A stretch of 64,000 nt of DNA, taken from positions 1-64,000 of IMG/VR virus record IMGVR_UViG_3300048687_000113, one strand, 5' to 3'. The stretch comes from a virus. The translations under genes were made by a program, and so were the position numbers. Under the pieces are notes generated by a model. The model was given only the letters and a program-made list of their open reading frames with translations, was not told the origin of the DNA and ran no database searches. Shown here piece by piece: positions 22,833 to 57,581 of the stretch (positions within the stretch are counted from its first letter, which is position 1; each line of letters opens with the position of its first letter).

Positions 22833-24554
22833 TCACCCCGCCAGCGACACCTCCGCCGAAGCCTCCGGACGCTTGCGCCGCCGATCAAAGTAACGCTCCG
22901 ACGCCGGGGCCCACTTCGGCACGACCCTGGCTACGCGTCCTGAGCCCACGCCACCCGGCCCGTCTTCGACACGAATATGGTCGACCACCTTCTTTGCCGC
23001 CATCTGCCGCTCCTCCACCGTGGCACGCTGCCACACAGCAGAGAGCCCCTGGAACTCCTCCGCCGGCGGCACCACGTGCGCGGAGACCTCGGCCTTTAGG
23101 CGCTTCACTTCGGCCTCAAGATCCGCGAGTTCGAAGTTCACCTTCTCCATGCGCACCTTGGCCTCTTCGATCGACGTCAAGCCTGCCTCGTACCCCTCGT
23201 TGATCCGGGCCTTCCGCTGCTTCAGCGCATTAATCAGCGCCTCGGTCTTCGGGATACTCGACTCTGCCTTCTTCACCTCGGCGGCACGCTCCATGCTCCC
23301 CTGTGCCAGGTGCTCGCCCTTCGCGCAGCCGAAGAGCCAGGCTTCGAAAGCCTTCCGGACCCGGTTCAGGTCCATGGAAGCCGTCTTTCCACTGGCGTGC
23401 TTCTCGCTCCGGTCGCACCGGAACAGCTTCAACACCGGGTACCGCGTGCCGTCGCTCTTCTTCGTGCCACCCCCGTTTACGACGGTCATGATCTCGAAGC
23501 AGACAGAACCGTCATGGCAGATCTGCCCGCACCGCGCCAATGACGAGAGGTCGTAAGACGGCTTGCGTGTACGCGTCTTGGGCGACGTCTGCTTCAGTCG
23601 CCGTTCTACGTACGCGTCCCACAGGTCCATCCCGATGAGCGCCTCGTGTGCGGCGTCCGCCCAGATGTCGTATTCCGCCGGGGAGGTGGACGAAGGTTTT
23701 CCGCCTTCGCTACGCGTCCTCAAGAGCCCTGCGGCGAACCCGGAATCCAGAACGGTCCTCCACTGGTTTTCACGCATGATGGCGCCACGGGCAGACCTCA
23801 GACCGTCACGGTAGGCGTCCTCCGCGATTCGCCAGAGGGTGGCACCTTCGGCCCACATTGTGTACGCCTTCACGTACCAGTCGGACCGGAAGACGCTGGG
23901 AGGCTCCTCGTAGGGGAAGTCCTTGTCCGGGATGAGGATTCCGCCGCACTTGTTGGCGCAGTAGTAGAACCTCTCCCCCGGCCTCTTCTCGCACCCGGGG
24001 CAGCGGACGTACCCAAATCGTGGAGTTCCGCTGTGCGGCAGCCCTTCGCGGAAGCGGCGGGCGTGGGCTGTCATCCAGCTCGCGCGGATGGTGTCGAGTT
24101 GGTATTCAGCGAGGCGCAGGAACTGGTCCCGCATGTACCGGCCGGCGGGTGTCGTTGCGTCAATGTCCTGTGTGGCGGAGAGGAGTTCGCCACCTGCACG
24201 GGTCAACTCGTTGATGTAGTGGAGCGATCCCACCAGCGTGCGGCCGAAACGGCTGTATTCCCAGACGACGACGGCGTCAGCTTCTTTGTTCTTTACGCGC
24301 TCGATGCATTCGGAGATGCGGCGCTTAGCGAAGTCCGCGCCGGAGAGGTCGAGATCCTGTACAGGCTCTCCGACTATTTCGATCCCCTTCATCGCGCAGT
24401 AGGCCCGGCAGATGAGGGCCTGTTCGTCGTGGCTTTTCATGTTCTCGCGGGCCGTGGATACCCGGACGTAGACGATCGCCCGTCGAACGACTCTGCCGTT
24501 CGCGAGCGTGAGCGCGGGGCCCTTGTGGGCGGGGACGAGTAGGTCACTGTTCAC
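22833..24554 (-). CDS. Large serine recombinase (integrase)
   Basis: 573 aa from GTG 24554, with TAGGAGC upstream. The catalytic domain shows YVRVSTARE (S33) and EYSRFGR. The recombinase domain carries RFGYVRCPGC and a zinc-ribbon segment with CANKCGG, and a long coiled coil spans about 430-500. Large serine integrases join attP and attB with a 2-bp crossover, and excision needs a separate directionality factor. No such factor was recognised nearby. GC and codon use match the neighbours. Confidence 0.95.
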   Translation of the reverse strand: MNSDLLVPAHKGPALTLANGRVVRRAIVYVRVSTARENMKSHDEQALICRAYCAMKGIEIVGEPVQDLDLSGADFAKRRISECIERVKNKEADAVVVWEYSRFGRTLVGSLHYINELTRAGGELLSATQDIDATTPAGRYMRDQFLRLAEYQLDTIRASWMTAHARRFREGLPHSGTPRFGYVRCPGCEKRPGERFYYCANKCGGILIPDKDFPYEEPPSVFRSDWYVKAYTMWAEGATLWRIAEDAYRDGLRSARGAIMRENQWRTVLDSGFAAGLLRTRSEGGKPSSTSPAEYDIWADAAHEALIGMDLWDAYVERRLKQTSPKTRTRKPSYDLSSLARCGQICHDGSVCFEIMTVVNGGGTKKSDGTRYPVLKLFRCDRSEKHASGKTASMDLNRVRKAFEAWLFGCAKGEHLAQGSMERAAEVKKAESSIPKTEALINALKQRKARINEGYEAGLTSIEEAKVRMEKVNFELADLEAEVKRLKAEVSAHVVPPAEEFQGLSAVWQRATVEERQMAAKKVVDHIRVEDGPGGVGSGRVARVVPKWAPASERYFDRRRKRPEASAEVSLAG

Positions 24555-25219: not shown

Positions 25220-25900
25220 CTATGCCGCGCGGCGTTCGTTGGCCGTCTCCCGGTCCTTCTTGCTGGCCGCCGGCCAGTGCCTGCACTTGGTCTGGTGCGC
25301 ACGCCGGGCGTCCTCGCTGAGAAATCCGTAGCCGCCATTTTGGGCGCACACCGCGTGGTCGACGCAGAAGTGGGTGAACGTCTGGCCGTCTTGGAGTTCG
25401 AAGCCAATGTCCGGCCCGTCGTACGGTGTGCCGTCGTCTCGATTGTGCGATTTGCCGTGCTGCGTGCGGTTGCGCAGGTCGACGTAGTACGGGTCCGGGC
25501 TGCCGGCGCGGTGCTTTAGCGGGCAGATGACCTGAATTACATCGTCGCGCCAGGCTCCGCCCCTTACCCCCTTGCGTCGCTTGGGGGCGTTCTCGGGCTC
25601 CGGCGCCTGCTCGCTGGCGTTATCGGGGGCCAGTGCGAGTTGAGCATGGTCATTGCGGCGAGGGACGGGCTTTGTTTCGCGCGCCGAGCGCCGGAGTGCG
25701 TCTAGGACGTCCGGCTGGAGCCGTGGCAGAACGTCGTCGCGGCGGTGGTAGACCGTGTCGAAATACCAGCCGCACGGGTCGCACAGGTCGACTACCTTCC
25801 CGTCGCCAATTGAGCGTTCCTGCGTCGCCGGCACGCGGGGGGCCTCGGGGAGCGCTGCATGCCAGTCGCAGGTCGTGAGGTCAACGATCGCCTTTGCCAT
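25220..25900 (-). CDS. Unknown Cys/His-containing protein
   Basis: 226 aa, ATGA-coupled to the upstream gene. Motifs include CDPCGWYFD near residue 40, a His/Cys group FTHFCVDHAVCAQNGG, and a basic C-terminus. The pattern suggests metal binding and nucleic-acid contact. No family recognised. Confidence 0.68.
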   Translation of the reverse strand: MAKAIVDLTTCDWHAALPEAPRVPATQERSIGDGKVVDLCDPCGWYFDTVYHRRDDVLPRLQPDVLDALRRSARETKPVPRRNDHAQLALAPDNASEQAPEPENAPKRRKGVRGGAWRDDVIQVICPLKHRAGSPDPYYVDLRNRTQHGKSHNRDDGTPYDGPDIGFELQDGQTFTHFCVDHAVCAQNGGYGFLSEDARRAHQTKCRHWPAASKKDRETANERRAA

Positions 25901-26316
25901 CAGGCGGCGCCCCTGCGCGCCGACTTGCTCTTCGCGCTGCGCAGCGGGATGGGCGCTTCCCGGACTTCGTCCCACAGCGCGCCCAGGCTCAATTCGTGGC
26001 GGATGCTGATGCCTGTCTGCCGGACGCCGCGCGGGCTGGCGAGTGCCTCGTTGCGCTGGGTGTAGGCCCATTTCGTCCTGTCGACGGGGCCGCGACGCCC
26101 CATTGTCATCGTCGTGTGACGGAGCTGGTCGCAGCGCGCGCAGCGCTGGGTGATGTCGATGTAGACCGCGTTCTCCGGCTTGCGGACGCTGTGGTTGTTG
26201 GCGTTGAACCCATGCCAGTCGTAGGCGACCCACGCATGCTTGTCGGCGATGCATGCCTTGAGTTCGTCAGGGATCGACTCAACGTGGGCGTAGACCTCAG
26301 CGACGAAAGCTTCCAC
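25900..26316 (-). CDS. Unknown protein with Cys knuckle
   Basis: 138 aa from GTG 26316, preceded by AAGGAG seven bases away. Contains RCARCDQLRHT and a basic tail. The 26409-26424 palindrome lies 93 bp upstream, so this short operon is probably under that regulator. Confidence 0.67.
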   Translation of the reverse strand: MEAFVAEVYAHVESIPDELKACIADKHAWVAYDWHGFNANNHSVRKPENAVYIDITQRCARCDQLRHTTMTMGRRGPVDRTKWAYTQRNEALASPRGVRQTGISIRHELSLGALWDEVREAPIPLRSAKSKSARRGAA

Positions 26317-26512: not shown

Positions 26513-27451
26513 TTACTTCGTCGACTCGTTGCGCACTTTGTAGGCGTACTCGCCGAGCTTGGTCAGACACCAACCGTCCCGTGTACCCGGTGCTGCCTGA
26601 ATCATTTCCAGGTTTTCGAGCCGGATATCGCTCGTCGCGAGCCCCGAGATGTTGCCGTCCTTGTTCCTGGTGCCGGCGGCCATGCGCCCCAGGACGGCCA
26701 GGTTGAAGGGCGTGAGCAGCTCGATGCGCTCCACGAGGCTCAACTGCTCGACCTTGTGCCCGCTGGCTGTCCGCCCCTTCCAGGCGCGGGAGTCCTCGAA
26801 TCCCTCGTCGAGGTTTGAGTGCTGGGTGTTCGGCACGTAGTGCTCGCGTGCCTCCTTCTCGGCCGGGTCCGCTTCCTCTTCGCCGGCCGGTTCCTGTGTG
26901 GGTGTGGCGTCCTCGGTGCGGGTGGCGCTCAGTGGACGTCGCGGCGCTTCCGCCGCCTTCTCCCGGGCGGCCTTGAGCGCCTCCTGCACGTCGCTCTGCG
27001 GCACCGCGAACTCCGGCGTCCCCGGGTCGAGCCTGCCTTCCTGCTCATTGAGCAGGGCGTCGAGGCGGCTGCGGTCACCGAACTTGTCGAAGCTCCTGTA
27101 GGCGTCCTTGATTTTCTTCGGGATTCGACCGCGCGGAGGCACGTCCAGGCCCTGCTGTCGGGCCCAGGCGCGGGTGGCCTTGGGGTCAATTCCTCCCTGG
27201 TGCCGGTTGAGGGTGGCGCCCCGGCCGGCGGGCTCGGTCATCGCCCTGGCGGGGCGCTTGCTCTGACGCTTGATCGCCCTGCCTGCCCGCATGAACTCCG
27301 CGAGCTGGGTGCGGAGTTTGGTGTAGTTGTGGTCGCTGAGGTCGATCTCGTACTCGTCGCCGTCGAGGGAGAAGGTGTGGGTGCCGGCGGCTTCGGTTTC
27401 GCCGGTGGGGTCGAGGTCGTCGGTGAGGATGATGGTGATCTGCTGGGACAT
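26513..27451 (-). CDS. Lsr2-like xenogeneic silencer with C-terminal extension
   Basis: 312 aa, nearly three times normal Lsr2 length. Residues 1-60 match the Lsr2 dimerisation domain (TIILTDDLDPTGETEA...HTFSLDGDEYEIDLS). Residues about 85-135 match its DNA-binding domain, with the key RGR at 107-109 that enters AT-rich minor grooves. An acidic linker leads to a C-terminal winged-helix-like part (about 225-312). Lsr2 silences foreign AT-rich DNA in actinobacteria, and actinophages carry versions. CAGGAG precedes the ATG. Confidence 0.9.
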   Translation of the reverse strand: MSQQITIILTDDLDPTGETEAAGTHTFSLDGDEYEIDLSDHNYTKLRTQLAEFMRAGRAIKRQSKRPARAMTEPAGRGATLNRHQGGIDPKATRAWARQQGLDVPPRGRIPKKIKDAYRSFDKFGDRSRLDALLNEQEGRLDPGTPEFAVPQSDVQEALKAAREKAAEAPRRPLSATRTEDATPTQEPAGEEEADPAEKEAREHYVPNTQHSNLDEGFEDSRAWKGRTASGHKVEQLSLVERIELLTPFNLAVLGRMAAGTRNKDGNISGLATSDIRLENLEMIQAAPGTRDGWCLTKLGEYAYKVRNESTK

Positions 27452-27480
27452 GGTGGGCTCCTGTTTCTGGGCATGAAAAA

Positions 27481-27502
27481 GACCCCGCCAGGAGGCGGGG
27501 TC
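27481..27502 (-). terminator. Strong terminator between the Lsr2 paralogues
   Basis: GACCCCGCC / GGCGGGGTC with AGGA (TCCT on minus) loop, followed on the minus strand by TTTTT. Separates the two Lsr2-like genes, so each likely has its own promoter. Confidence 0.85.
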
Positions 27503-27569
27503 ATGTGGCTTTCTGATGAAGGTTGCTTGAGAGGCCTGTAAGCGGGGCGGATACGGGTTCCGTGCAGGA

Positions 27570-28301
27570 TCAGGCGGACAACGCAGGCTGTCGCAGGCGC
27601 ACCCAGGCGTGCCCAACTTCCGTTACGTGGAAAGAATCGTCGGCCTGTTCGTAACTCATGACGCCACGTCGGACGAGGGCTTCGTAGCTCCGTCGTTCGG
27701 ACGTGTCTTGCGCTGTGGCGGTTCCGTCCTCGGCACATGCTTCTCGCAGGAGTCTTTCCTGAGGGGCAGACAACTTTCCAACCTTGCGTGCGCAGCTTTC
27801 ATGCCGGGCCTCAACCGTATGTACTGCCTTGTTAATTGGGACAACCCTTGCCGGTTCGACCGGAGGAAGGCTTGGGTCAACGTTGGCCTTTTCCAGCAAG
27901 AGGTCAAGCCGCGTGCGGTCATTGTGCCGGGTGTGGTCCAACCAGGCTTTCCGTGTTGCGAGCGGGATGCGGCCGAGCGGCTTGACCGGCAGATGGTGGC
28001 GAGCACACCAGGCCCGGATGCTGGCTGCCTCCTCGCGCTGCTGAGCCTGCGTCAGGGGCGGCGGCGTCGCGTCTGCGTCCACCGGCACTGTGGCGGCGGG
28101 GACTCCCTTGGCTGCGATGTTGTCCGGCGCGGCCGGCCGGCTTGCCGTCATGTACGGCTCCAGCAGCTCCCTGAATTTCGCCGCATTCTCGTTCGACAGT
28201 TCGATTTCGCGAGGCTTTCCGTCCAGCGCAAACGTCACGGTCTCGTCTGCTTCACCCCCGTCCAGATCATCGACAAGTCGAACCTTCACCCTCTGCGCCA
28301 T
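27570..28301 (-). CDS. Second Lsr2-like protein, degenerate RGR
   Basis: 243 aa. N-terminus (VKVRLVDDLDGGEADE...TFALDGKPREIELS) matches Lsr2 dimerisation. A Pro/Ala linker leads to a DNA-binding domain (EAASIRAWCARHHLPVKPLGRIP) in which the RGR triplet is PLGR, so the first Arg is missing. A C-terminal winged-helix-like end resembles that of the first paralogue. It may form heterodimers or act as a modulator. GGAGGAAG precedes the ATG. Confidence 0.87.
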   Translation of the reverse strand: MAQRVKVRLVDDLDGGEADETVTFALDGKPREIELSNENAAKFRELLEPYMTASRPAAPDNIAAKGVPAATVPVDADATPPPLTQAQQREEAASIRAWCARHHLPVKPLGRIPLATRKAWLDHTRHNDRTRLDLLLEKANVDPSLPPVEPARVVPINKAVHTVEARHESCARKVGKLSAPQERLLREACAEDGTATAQDTSERRSYEALVRRGVMSYEQADDSFHVTEVGHAWVRLRQPALSA

Positions 28302-29590: not shown

Positions 29591-29911
29591 TCAGTCCTTC
29601 GCATCTCGTGCGGATTGGCGCTTATTCCAGGCATTGAGGACATTGCGCCCAAATTCGGTGAGGCCGGTGATAATCCACCCACCCTCACGCGTCTCCTCGT
29701 CGCCGGGCTCCACCCAGTCCACTGTCCAGAGGCCGGTGTCCTGCATCTTCCTGACGTCTTGCACGGCCCAGGCCCGCTGCCCGGGTGTCTGAAGCCGTCC
29801 GACAGGCGCGTTCTCCTTCACATAGGCCAGCCTTTCGGCACCGCTGGCATAGAGAGCGCGCACGTGTCCGTCCTCGTCGACGTACTTCAAGCTGTAGCGG
29901 CTTTCGGGCAT
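29591..29911 (-). CDS. Small protein with Lsr2-tail-like C-terminus
   Basis: 106 aa. The C-terminal 50 residues (LWTVDWVEPG...GGWIITGLTEFGRNVLNAW) resemble, by eye, the winged-helix-like ends of the two Lsr2 proteins (GWCLTKLGEYAYKV, SFHVTEVGHAWVRL). It could be a free-standing partner that shares that module. Confidence 0.65.
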   Translation of the reverse strand: MPESRYSLKYVDEDGHVRALYASGAERLAYVKENAPVGRLQTPGQRAWAVQDVRKMQDTGLWTVDWVEPGDEETREGGWIITGLTEFGRNVLNAWNKRQSARDAKD

Positions 29912-56369: not shown

Positions 56370-56615
56370 TCACTTCTTGGGGGTCAGGCCCTGCTGTCCG
56401 GCCTTCACACCTCCGCAGAAGGCCGTGTACTCGCCATCCGTCAGCCAGATCTTCTGGTCCTGGTTGATCGAGTGGCGCAGCACCCAGCCGCCATCGAGCT
56501 GTGCGACCTCCAGGCAGTCACCCGAGCCGCCACCACCGGAGAGTTCCGACTTGGTCCACTTGATTCCCGTGAGGTCCTGCGCCTGGAGGGCCTGGAGGGC
56601 TTGTTCCTTAGTCAC
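56370..56615 (-). CDS. DUF397-family protein
   Basis: 81 aa from GTG 56615, overlapping the regulator stop by eight bases. The DUF397 pattern is clear: GIKWTKSELSGGGG, DCLEVAQLDGG, WVLRHS, then FCGGVKAG. In Streptomyces such proteins sit beside DUF5753 regulators and act with them. Confidence 0.88.
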   Translation of the reverse strand: MTKEQALQALQAQDLTGIKWTKSELSGGGGSGDCLEVAQLDGGWVLRHSINQDQKIWLTDGEYTAFCGGVKAGQQGLTPKK

Positions 56616-57486
56616 GCGACAACTCTTTTCTGACTGCACGAATTTGCTCCAACGATTCCAACGGTGAGAGAGACAACTCCTTGGATGATTCGAGGAGTCC
56701 TCGGATGCCCCGAACCTCCTTGGCTCTCTTCTCGAAGGACATCCCCGTCACGCCGTCGAACGCCGCGATCGGGCTCTCGCTTGCTCCACTGAACTCGAAC
56801 AAGTGAAAGAAGTAGGTCAGCGTCGCTTCCGCGCTGAAGGGGATGATGCGGACCTTCACGCCTCTGTCTGTGATGTCCGCGATTAGCGAGTCAAGCTGCT
56901 CCAGCATGGACGTCCTGCCGCCCACCTGTTGCAGCAGGGCCCCCTCTCCGATGATCGCTTCCACGGCAGGCGGCGTGCTCTTGTCGAACACGCGGCGCCG
57001 GTTCTTTCGCAGCTCGACGGATCGCTCAACCATCACGGTACTGAGCGAATCCTTGGAGAGGTGACTGGTGACCGCCCGACCGTAGTTGGGGGTCTGGAGG
57101 AGGCCGGGGATCAGGTTGCCGGCGCACGTGGTGATCGTCCGTGCCGCGTCCTCGTAGGCCACGAACGTGATGAGCGACTCCGGGAAATCCTCGTCGAACT
57201 CGGTCCACCAGGCGCTGGCGATCGACATGCCTTCGCGGCGCATCGTGGTCAGCGTGACGCGCGTCTCCGTGTCGAGCTGGAGGCACTTCACTATCGCCTT
57301 CCACTCGGCGTCGGTGGGCCACGTTTCGCCCCGTTCCATCCGGGAGTAGCGGTGGTAGCTCCTCTGTCCCATCGCCTGCGCGACGTGAAGCTGCTTCACT
57401 GTGCCGCCTGGTGCGGCGATGCGCGCCCTCTTCAGCTCGTCGCCGAACCGCTTCCTCGCGAACATCGCTGCTGTGTTGACGGCCAT
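56608..57486 (-). CDS. XRE-family regulator with DUF5753-type C-terminus
   Basis: 292 aa from ATG 57486, with GGGAGGGG upstream. N-terminal helix-turn-helix (about 10-70: VAQAMGQRSYHRYSRMERGE), then the DUF5753-like domain with SLITFVAYEDAARTI, LIPGLLQTPNY and VRIIPFSAEAT. Pairs with the DUF397-like gene. Streptomyces use many such pairs in development and mobile elements. A family 2 palindrome lies 96 bp upstream. Confidence 0.9.
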   Translation of the reverse strand: MAVNTAAMFARKRFGDELKRARIAAPGGTVKQLHVAQAMGQRSYHRYSRMERGETWPTDAEWKAIVKCLQLDTETRVTLTTMRREGMSIASAWWTEFDEDFPESLITFVAYEDAARTITTCAGNLIPGLLQTPNYGRAVTSHLSKDSLSTVMVERSVELRKNRRRVFDKSTPPAVEAIIGEGALLQQVGGRTSMLEQLDSLIADITDRGVKVRIIPFSAEATLTYFFHLFEFSGASESPIAAFDGVTGMSFEKRAKEVRGIRGLLESSKELSLSPLESLEQIRAVRKELSRD

Positions 57487-57581
57487 CTCCACCCCTCCCT
57501 GAGCCCTGTCGGCGGTTGAGGGCAGCGTAACGCGGGGGCGCCCAATCACGGCACGTCCGAGGGGAATTCTGGCGATGGGGT

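Follow-up and report, generated by a model that had tools for sequence, protein, structure and literature searches.

Ler, a relative of H-NS in which VGR takes the place of the Q/RGR motif, inserts only one arginine and relieves H-NS silencing (PMC4466236). The prophage-encoded protein CgpS silences its own prophage, and an N-terminal fragment of CgpS induces prophage CGP3 (described in PMC7074111). Rok of Bacillus consists of an oligomerization domain and a winged helix (PMC7074111). A survey of actinophage Lsr2 reports second lsr2 copies of cluster J mycobacteriophages as Ku-Lsr2 fusions (PMC8612146). Phage-encoded Lsr2 is common.

Here we describe two adjacent genes, A and B, which offer material for testing the roles of such proteins. 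They lie in the first 64,000 bases of a 109,243-bp IMG/VR virus record (bases 1-64000, hereafter the window), and their products are apparently an undescribed variant of a known gene silencer. The two proteins resemble Lsr2/LsrL, the Lsr2-like proteins of actinophages (PF11774 plus PF23359; PHROG 1223) and CgpS in the dimerization domain, in the RGR domain of A and in their phage or prophage origin, but differ from all of these in being encoded by adjacent paralogues, in their length (243-312 aa), in the predicted winged helix added to each and in the LGR motif of B. Ler is the closest precedent for this LGR, but it is not homologous to Lsr2, and the B orthologues of two related phages (G001 and G095, see below) keep RGR. 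The resemblance to Rok lies in how the proteins might work; no sequence relation was found, and here the winged helix stands behind a separate AT-hook-like domain. Phages with Ku-Lsr2 likewise have two Lsr2-domain genes each and an Lsr2 domain fused to another domain. However, in that survey Ku-Lsr2 keeps only the DNA-binding end of Lsr2 (PMC8612146), whereas both genes described here retain the dimerization domain and have a C-terminal domain added. A search of open-licence papers returned no Lsr2 with a winged helix, and no long or tandem Lsr2 was found among the best matches listed for annotated phages and plasmids, which covered the ~120-residue core only. Three Lsr2 hits that had looked long (L007, L008 and L009) were on inspection ordinary ORFs (about 112-119 aa).

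The source phage

The record represents a Streptomyces-type phage of ~109 kb that is, judging from its gene content, a temperate-looking myophage. It encodes a tail sheath, tail tube, baseplate J, gp25, portal, terminase and major head protein, together with DNA polymerase A, a DnaB-like helicase and a large serine integrase. Its proteins matched those of a second IMG/VR phage (G001, locus L010, 108,057 bp) in one circular order, and the same order matched a prophage in the Streptomyces chromosome G095 (about 3,297.6-3,406.8 kb). Because its two ends join inside this shared order, the record is a nearly complete, circularly permuted sequence. A fourth relative is a Streptomyces prophage in G865. 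The relative at L010 was found in IMG/VR by alignment of A and B together and not by single-protein queries; IMG/VR scans with A or B singly found no relatives.

The integrase gene (22833..24554, minus strand) marks the attachment-site end of the prophage map and the right end of the G095 prophage, at the ends of which no convincing shared att core was found. A candidate classical phage repressor, an HTH plus DUF5753 protein conserved in G001 and G095, is encoded at 56608-57549 on the minus strand (PF19054, E 5e-40). The 109 kb record also carries an Ant/KilAC antirepressor and a queuine tRNA-ribosyltransferase-like gene. The G865 prophage is present twice (L158, G865:C1:4612001-4630000; L159, 4722001-4740000), with a distance of 109,671 bp between the copies. 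These agree with 100% identity over 9,898 bp surrounding the Lsr2 pair, and the head gene also occurs twice, with that same distance between its copies. Either two prophages lie in tandem here or the duplication arose in the assembly.

Two adjacent genes encode long Lsr2-like proteins

Genes B (27570..28301) and A (26513..27451) both lie on the minus strand, in the transcription order B then A, with a gap of 118 bp between them; each has orthologues at loci L010, L119 and L158. PF11774, with a cut-off of 29.6 bits, matched the Lsr2 dimerization domain at the start of both proteins: residues 1-59 of A (27275..27451; 66 bits, E 2e-18) and residues 1-56 of B (28134..28301; 81 bits, E 5e-23), the latter containing an unusual strand, FALDGKPREIEL. 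Canonical Lsr2 in the Streptomyces loci that we fetched has about 105-113 aa. An earlier note on this DNA had described tandem Lsr2-like proteins two to three times longer than normal Lsr2, and both points held, with lengths of 312 aa for A and 243 aa for B versus about 110 aa.

The Lsr2 DNA-binding domain of A (residues 89-120; 27092..27187) matched PF23359 with 45.8 bits (E 4e-12; cut-off 26.9) and contains the RGR motif at residues 107-109 (27125-27133). The corresponding domain of B (residues 88-122; 27936..28040) gave a weak match of 12.6 bits (E 0.09), below that cut-off, and has LGR in place of RGR at residues 109-111 (27969..27977). PHROG 1223, 'nucleoid associated Lsr2-like', matched both proteins over about residues 1-120, extending in B over residues 1-122. 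Over their first ~176 residues, A and B share 34% identity; this region includes, after the DNA-binding domain, a stretch (DRxRLDxLL) that is absent from ordinary Lsr2. The profile matches place A in the Lsr2 family, to which B belongs through its dimerization domain.

The C-terminal domains are predicted to fold

AlphaFold2 predicted a winged helix at residues 163-237 of B (27591..27815), with the element order H-H-H-E-E-H and a pLDDT of about 95 from a shallow alignment. In A, the C-terminal domain (residues 196-312; 26516..26866) is conserved in nine phage proteins, and its winged-helix-like core (residues 239-311) was modelled with the same order of elements at a moderate pLDDT of about 70-88, also from a shallow alignment. 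The linkers of both proteins were of low confidence, and the dimerization domains were modelled poorly despite their strong sequence match. The models thus agree, confidently for B and moderately for A, with the proposal that each protein ends in a winged-helix-like domain; in the structure prediction suggested as a check, the C-terminal regions of both proteins folded and were not disordered.

A Foldseek search with the B domain returned 2jtv (TMt 0.73) and MarR-family regulators at E-values of 0.03 and higher. The predicted fold is like that of MarR winged helices and of RPA3401 (2jtv), but B is without the MarR dimerization helices. There was no sequence match to the MarR family, and no Pfam or NCBIfam model matched the C-terminal domain of A or B. 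For A, the topology fits, and winged-helix matches in the fold search were weak. No convincing PDB sequence relative was found for either domain, and homology between the two was undetectable (hhalign probability 10%). The A-type profile also hit ribosomal protein uL29 (E 7e-4), which was judged to be chance, because the hit spanned ~50 positions and the fold search gave nothing alike.

The A-type domain is basic in 8 of the 9 proteins (pI 8.1-9.9). The B domain is near neutral (pI 5.8-8.0), and so it may bind protein instead of DNA. Upstream of B lies a small conserved gene (29591-29911, minus strand; 44-60% identical in relatives), and the end of its product (GWIITGLTEFGRNVLNAW) resembles the wing and last helix of the A domain.

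The tandem is conserved in four phages

The B-then-A pair is kept in all four colinear ~109 kb phages (window, G001, G095 and G865), two of them integrated in Streptomyces chromosomes, and it occupies the same gene block near the attachment-site end in each. Full-length identities between orthologues are 44-54% for A and 37-62% for B; many structural proteins are 70-93% identical. Retention of the tandem by four phages that have diverged to 37-62% amino-acid identity places the pair beyond chance. The integrases of G865 and the window share just 28% identity, so the integrase has been exchanged and the pair retained.

In a tree of the Lsr2 core, the A and B orthologues of the window, G001 and G095 formed separate groups, A with support of 97/97 and B, on long branches, with 88/83. 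Among the four phages, the A tree joined G095 with G865 (86/87) and the B tree joined the window with G865 (93/98), a disagreement that implies different histories or independent change of the two genes. The G095 prophage contains a further Lsr2-domain ORF of about 119 aa (G095:C1:3324634-3324810), which brings its Lsr2-type genes to three. Immediately downstream of A, conserved genes (window 25220-26254, minus strand; L010:7622-8344) encode a protein with Cys/His pairs (TTCDWHAALPE ... VDLCDPC) and without a Pfam match; a similar small Cys-rich ORF follows an Lsr2 fusion in L121 (8801-9046).

The minor-groove motif varies in both proteins

The motifs of A and B are RGR/LGR in the window, RGR/RGR in G001, RGV/RGR in G095 and RGV/LGR in G865. 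The other Lsr2 DNA-binding domains fetched (about 86, four of these read by eye) carry RGR. The LGR that the earlier note had reported in the second protein is confirmed, and its presence in a second phage, G865, indicates that it is not a sequencing error. It accompanies KPREIEL in the dimerization strand; in a survey of this strand, Y or F precedes EI in 81 of 82 Lsr2 proteins, and D precedes L in 81. On this comparison of sequences, LGR is a stable allele paired with a rare dimerization-strand change. In contrast, the suggestion of one normal and one altered silencer is not supported as a rule, since every possible combination occurs among the four phages and the tree of A conflicts with that of B. 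A weaker rule, that at least one partner always keeps RGR, was ruled out by the RGV plus LGR of G865.

These motif changes, in either copy and in both copies of G865, together with the fast divergence of A and B (37-62% identity) relative to structural proteins (about 80-90% for many of them), could be taken to mean that the pair is a decaying duplicate, one protein losing DNA binding since the other suffices. This is very unlikely. All eight A and B genes have intact frames and conserved C-terminal domains, genes neighbouring the pair in its block diverge equally fast, and LGR and RGV each recur in two diverged phages, LGR with its specific change in the dimerization strand.

A hydrophobic residue followed by GR in place of Q/RGR, as in Ler, is found in B of the window and of G865, while B of G001 and of G095 has RGR. 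The resemblance of LGR to the VGR of Ler (PMC4466236) and the altered motifs of both G865 proteins would suit anti-silencers: A and/or B would join host Lsr2 via the shared dimerization domain and poison the host filaments, which would release the incoming phage genome from host silencing, in the mode of Ler, H-NST or the N-terminal CgpS fragment. The host genomes do have their own Lsr2 genes. However, RGR is intact in both G001 proteins and in A of the window, and long conserved C-terminal domains would be superfluous for a mere poison. We regard an anti-silencing role as possible but doubtful.

A hairpin separates B from A

Between the two genes, 30 nt before the start codon of A, lies a terminator-like hairpin with a 9 bp stem and a T run (27481..27502, minus strand). 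A like hairpin with a T run is present ~30 nt before A in all four phages (L010, L119 and L158 were read by eye), and it is kept although the surrounding genes are only 40-60% identical. The record contains few hairpins that combine a stem this long with a T-rich tail. A separate promoter of A would have little space between the hairpin and the gene, which makes partial termination the simplest guess; the hairpin, a candidate attenuator, probably sets the B:A ratio in this way. The region upstream of B is non-coding for ~300-400 bp in the window and L010, and a scan for consensus promoters found none.

This conserved intergenic element points to tuned expression, which would not be expected of plain nucleoid proteins that compact or protect phage DNA, during replication or as a prophage, with C-termini that only add affinity and no specific regulation. 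Such a role appears improbable to us. It would accord with the wide distribution of Lsr2-like proteins in lytic and temperate actinophages and with the position of the pair within an extended run of genes without known function and with no recognised repressor adjoining. Yet a short Lsr2 would suffice for it, and the retention of two different winged helices through deep divergence suggests a specific role.

Proposed function of the pair

The reading that we favour, giving it about even chances, is that the pair acts as a targeted silencer and modulator of prophage transcription, anchored by its winged helices, in which the B protein of the window would be a weakened partner akin to Ler. It draws on the Lsr2 domains, the conservation of the tandem in all four phages near the attachment-site end, the winged-helix predictions, the basic character of the A-type domain and its reuse in L101 and L118 (see below). 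Rok offers a precedent for the design, and CgpS one for a prophage silenced by its own product (PMC7074111). The dimerization domains would build DNA-bridging filaments, the AT-hook-like domains would bind AT-rich DNA broadly, and the winged helices would serve to anchor the filament at chosen phage operators or to nucleate it there; A and B would thereby act on prophage promoters as targeted silencers and modulators. The B proteins of the window and G865, with LGR and an altered dimerization strand, would be expected to show weaker minor-groove binding and to rely on the winged helix. Such a B could provide Ler-like tuning or counter-silencing towards A, and perhaps towards host Lsr2, with the B:A ratio probably set by the hairpin. 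Modulation of this kind is plausible in view of the precedents of Ler and the N-terminal CgpS fragment. The free variation of motif combinations among phages argues against a strict division of labour between the two proteins, and the presence of a candidate DUF5753 repressor and an antirepressor means that the pair need not be the lysogeny switch.

The A-type C-terminal domain recurs in other architectures

Of 394 Streptomyces genomes, 4 carried the A-type domain, as did 3 of the 396 in a Streptomycetaceae sample, with one genome common to both sets. Outside Streptomycetaceae, none of the 395 genomes in a class sample gave a hit, in a search that capped the candidates scored in each genome. 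Two A-type C-terminal queries had no match in 50,697 phage records, and one query had none in plasmids. The cases whose surroundings were read (that is, all but G1053) lie among phage genes, and smaller Streptomyces prophages also carry the domain.

Three architectures were seen: the tandem long pair of the ~109 kb phages; a single Lsr2 with the dimerization domain, the RGR domain and the C-terminal domain (G029, G150 and G1053); and an ordinary Lsr2 followed by a protein with the dimerization and C-terminal domains and without the Lsr2 DNA-binding domain (L101 and L118). In the L101 and L118 fusions, only an Arg-rich linker stands in place of the Lsr2 DNA-binding domain. Such a fusion beside an ordinary Lsr2 is expected if the A-type domain substitutes as the DNA-binding part, and we favour the reading that the putative winged helix is able to stand in for that domain. 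A dominant-negative partner, the layout that anti-silencing would predict, fits too; but the ordinary Lsr2 beside the fusion is also phage-encoded, so that the likely partner of the fusion is the phage's own protein.

More tentatively, these proteins may belong to a modular class of Lsr2-based regulators that combine a dimerization domain with a sequence-specific winged helix, sometimes replacing the AT-hook-like domain, and whose paired paralogues would form mixed filaments with a composition that switches prophage genes between silenced and active. The pair, the Ler-like motif change and the relatives without an AT-hook-like domain form a natural series in which the targeting and relief of Lsr2 filaments can be studied. 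Should the winged helices confer sequence specificity, the proteins would be silencers with an address, and possibly useful parts for controlling silent Streptomyces gene clusters.

The converse of the L101 and L118 proteins was also seen: a phage protein of about 145 aa (L099:2099-2536) has a C-terminal Lsr2 DNA-binding domain (GTRGRIPRRV) and is without the dimerization domain.
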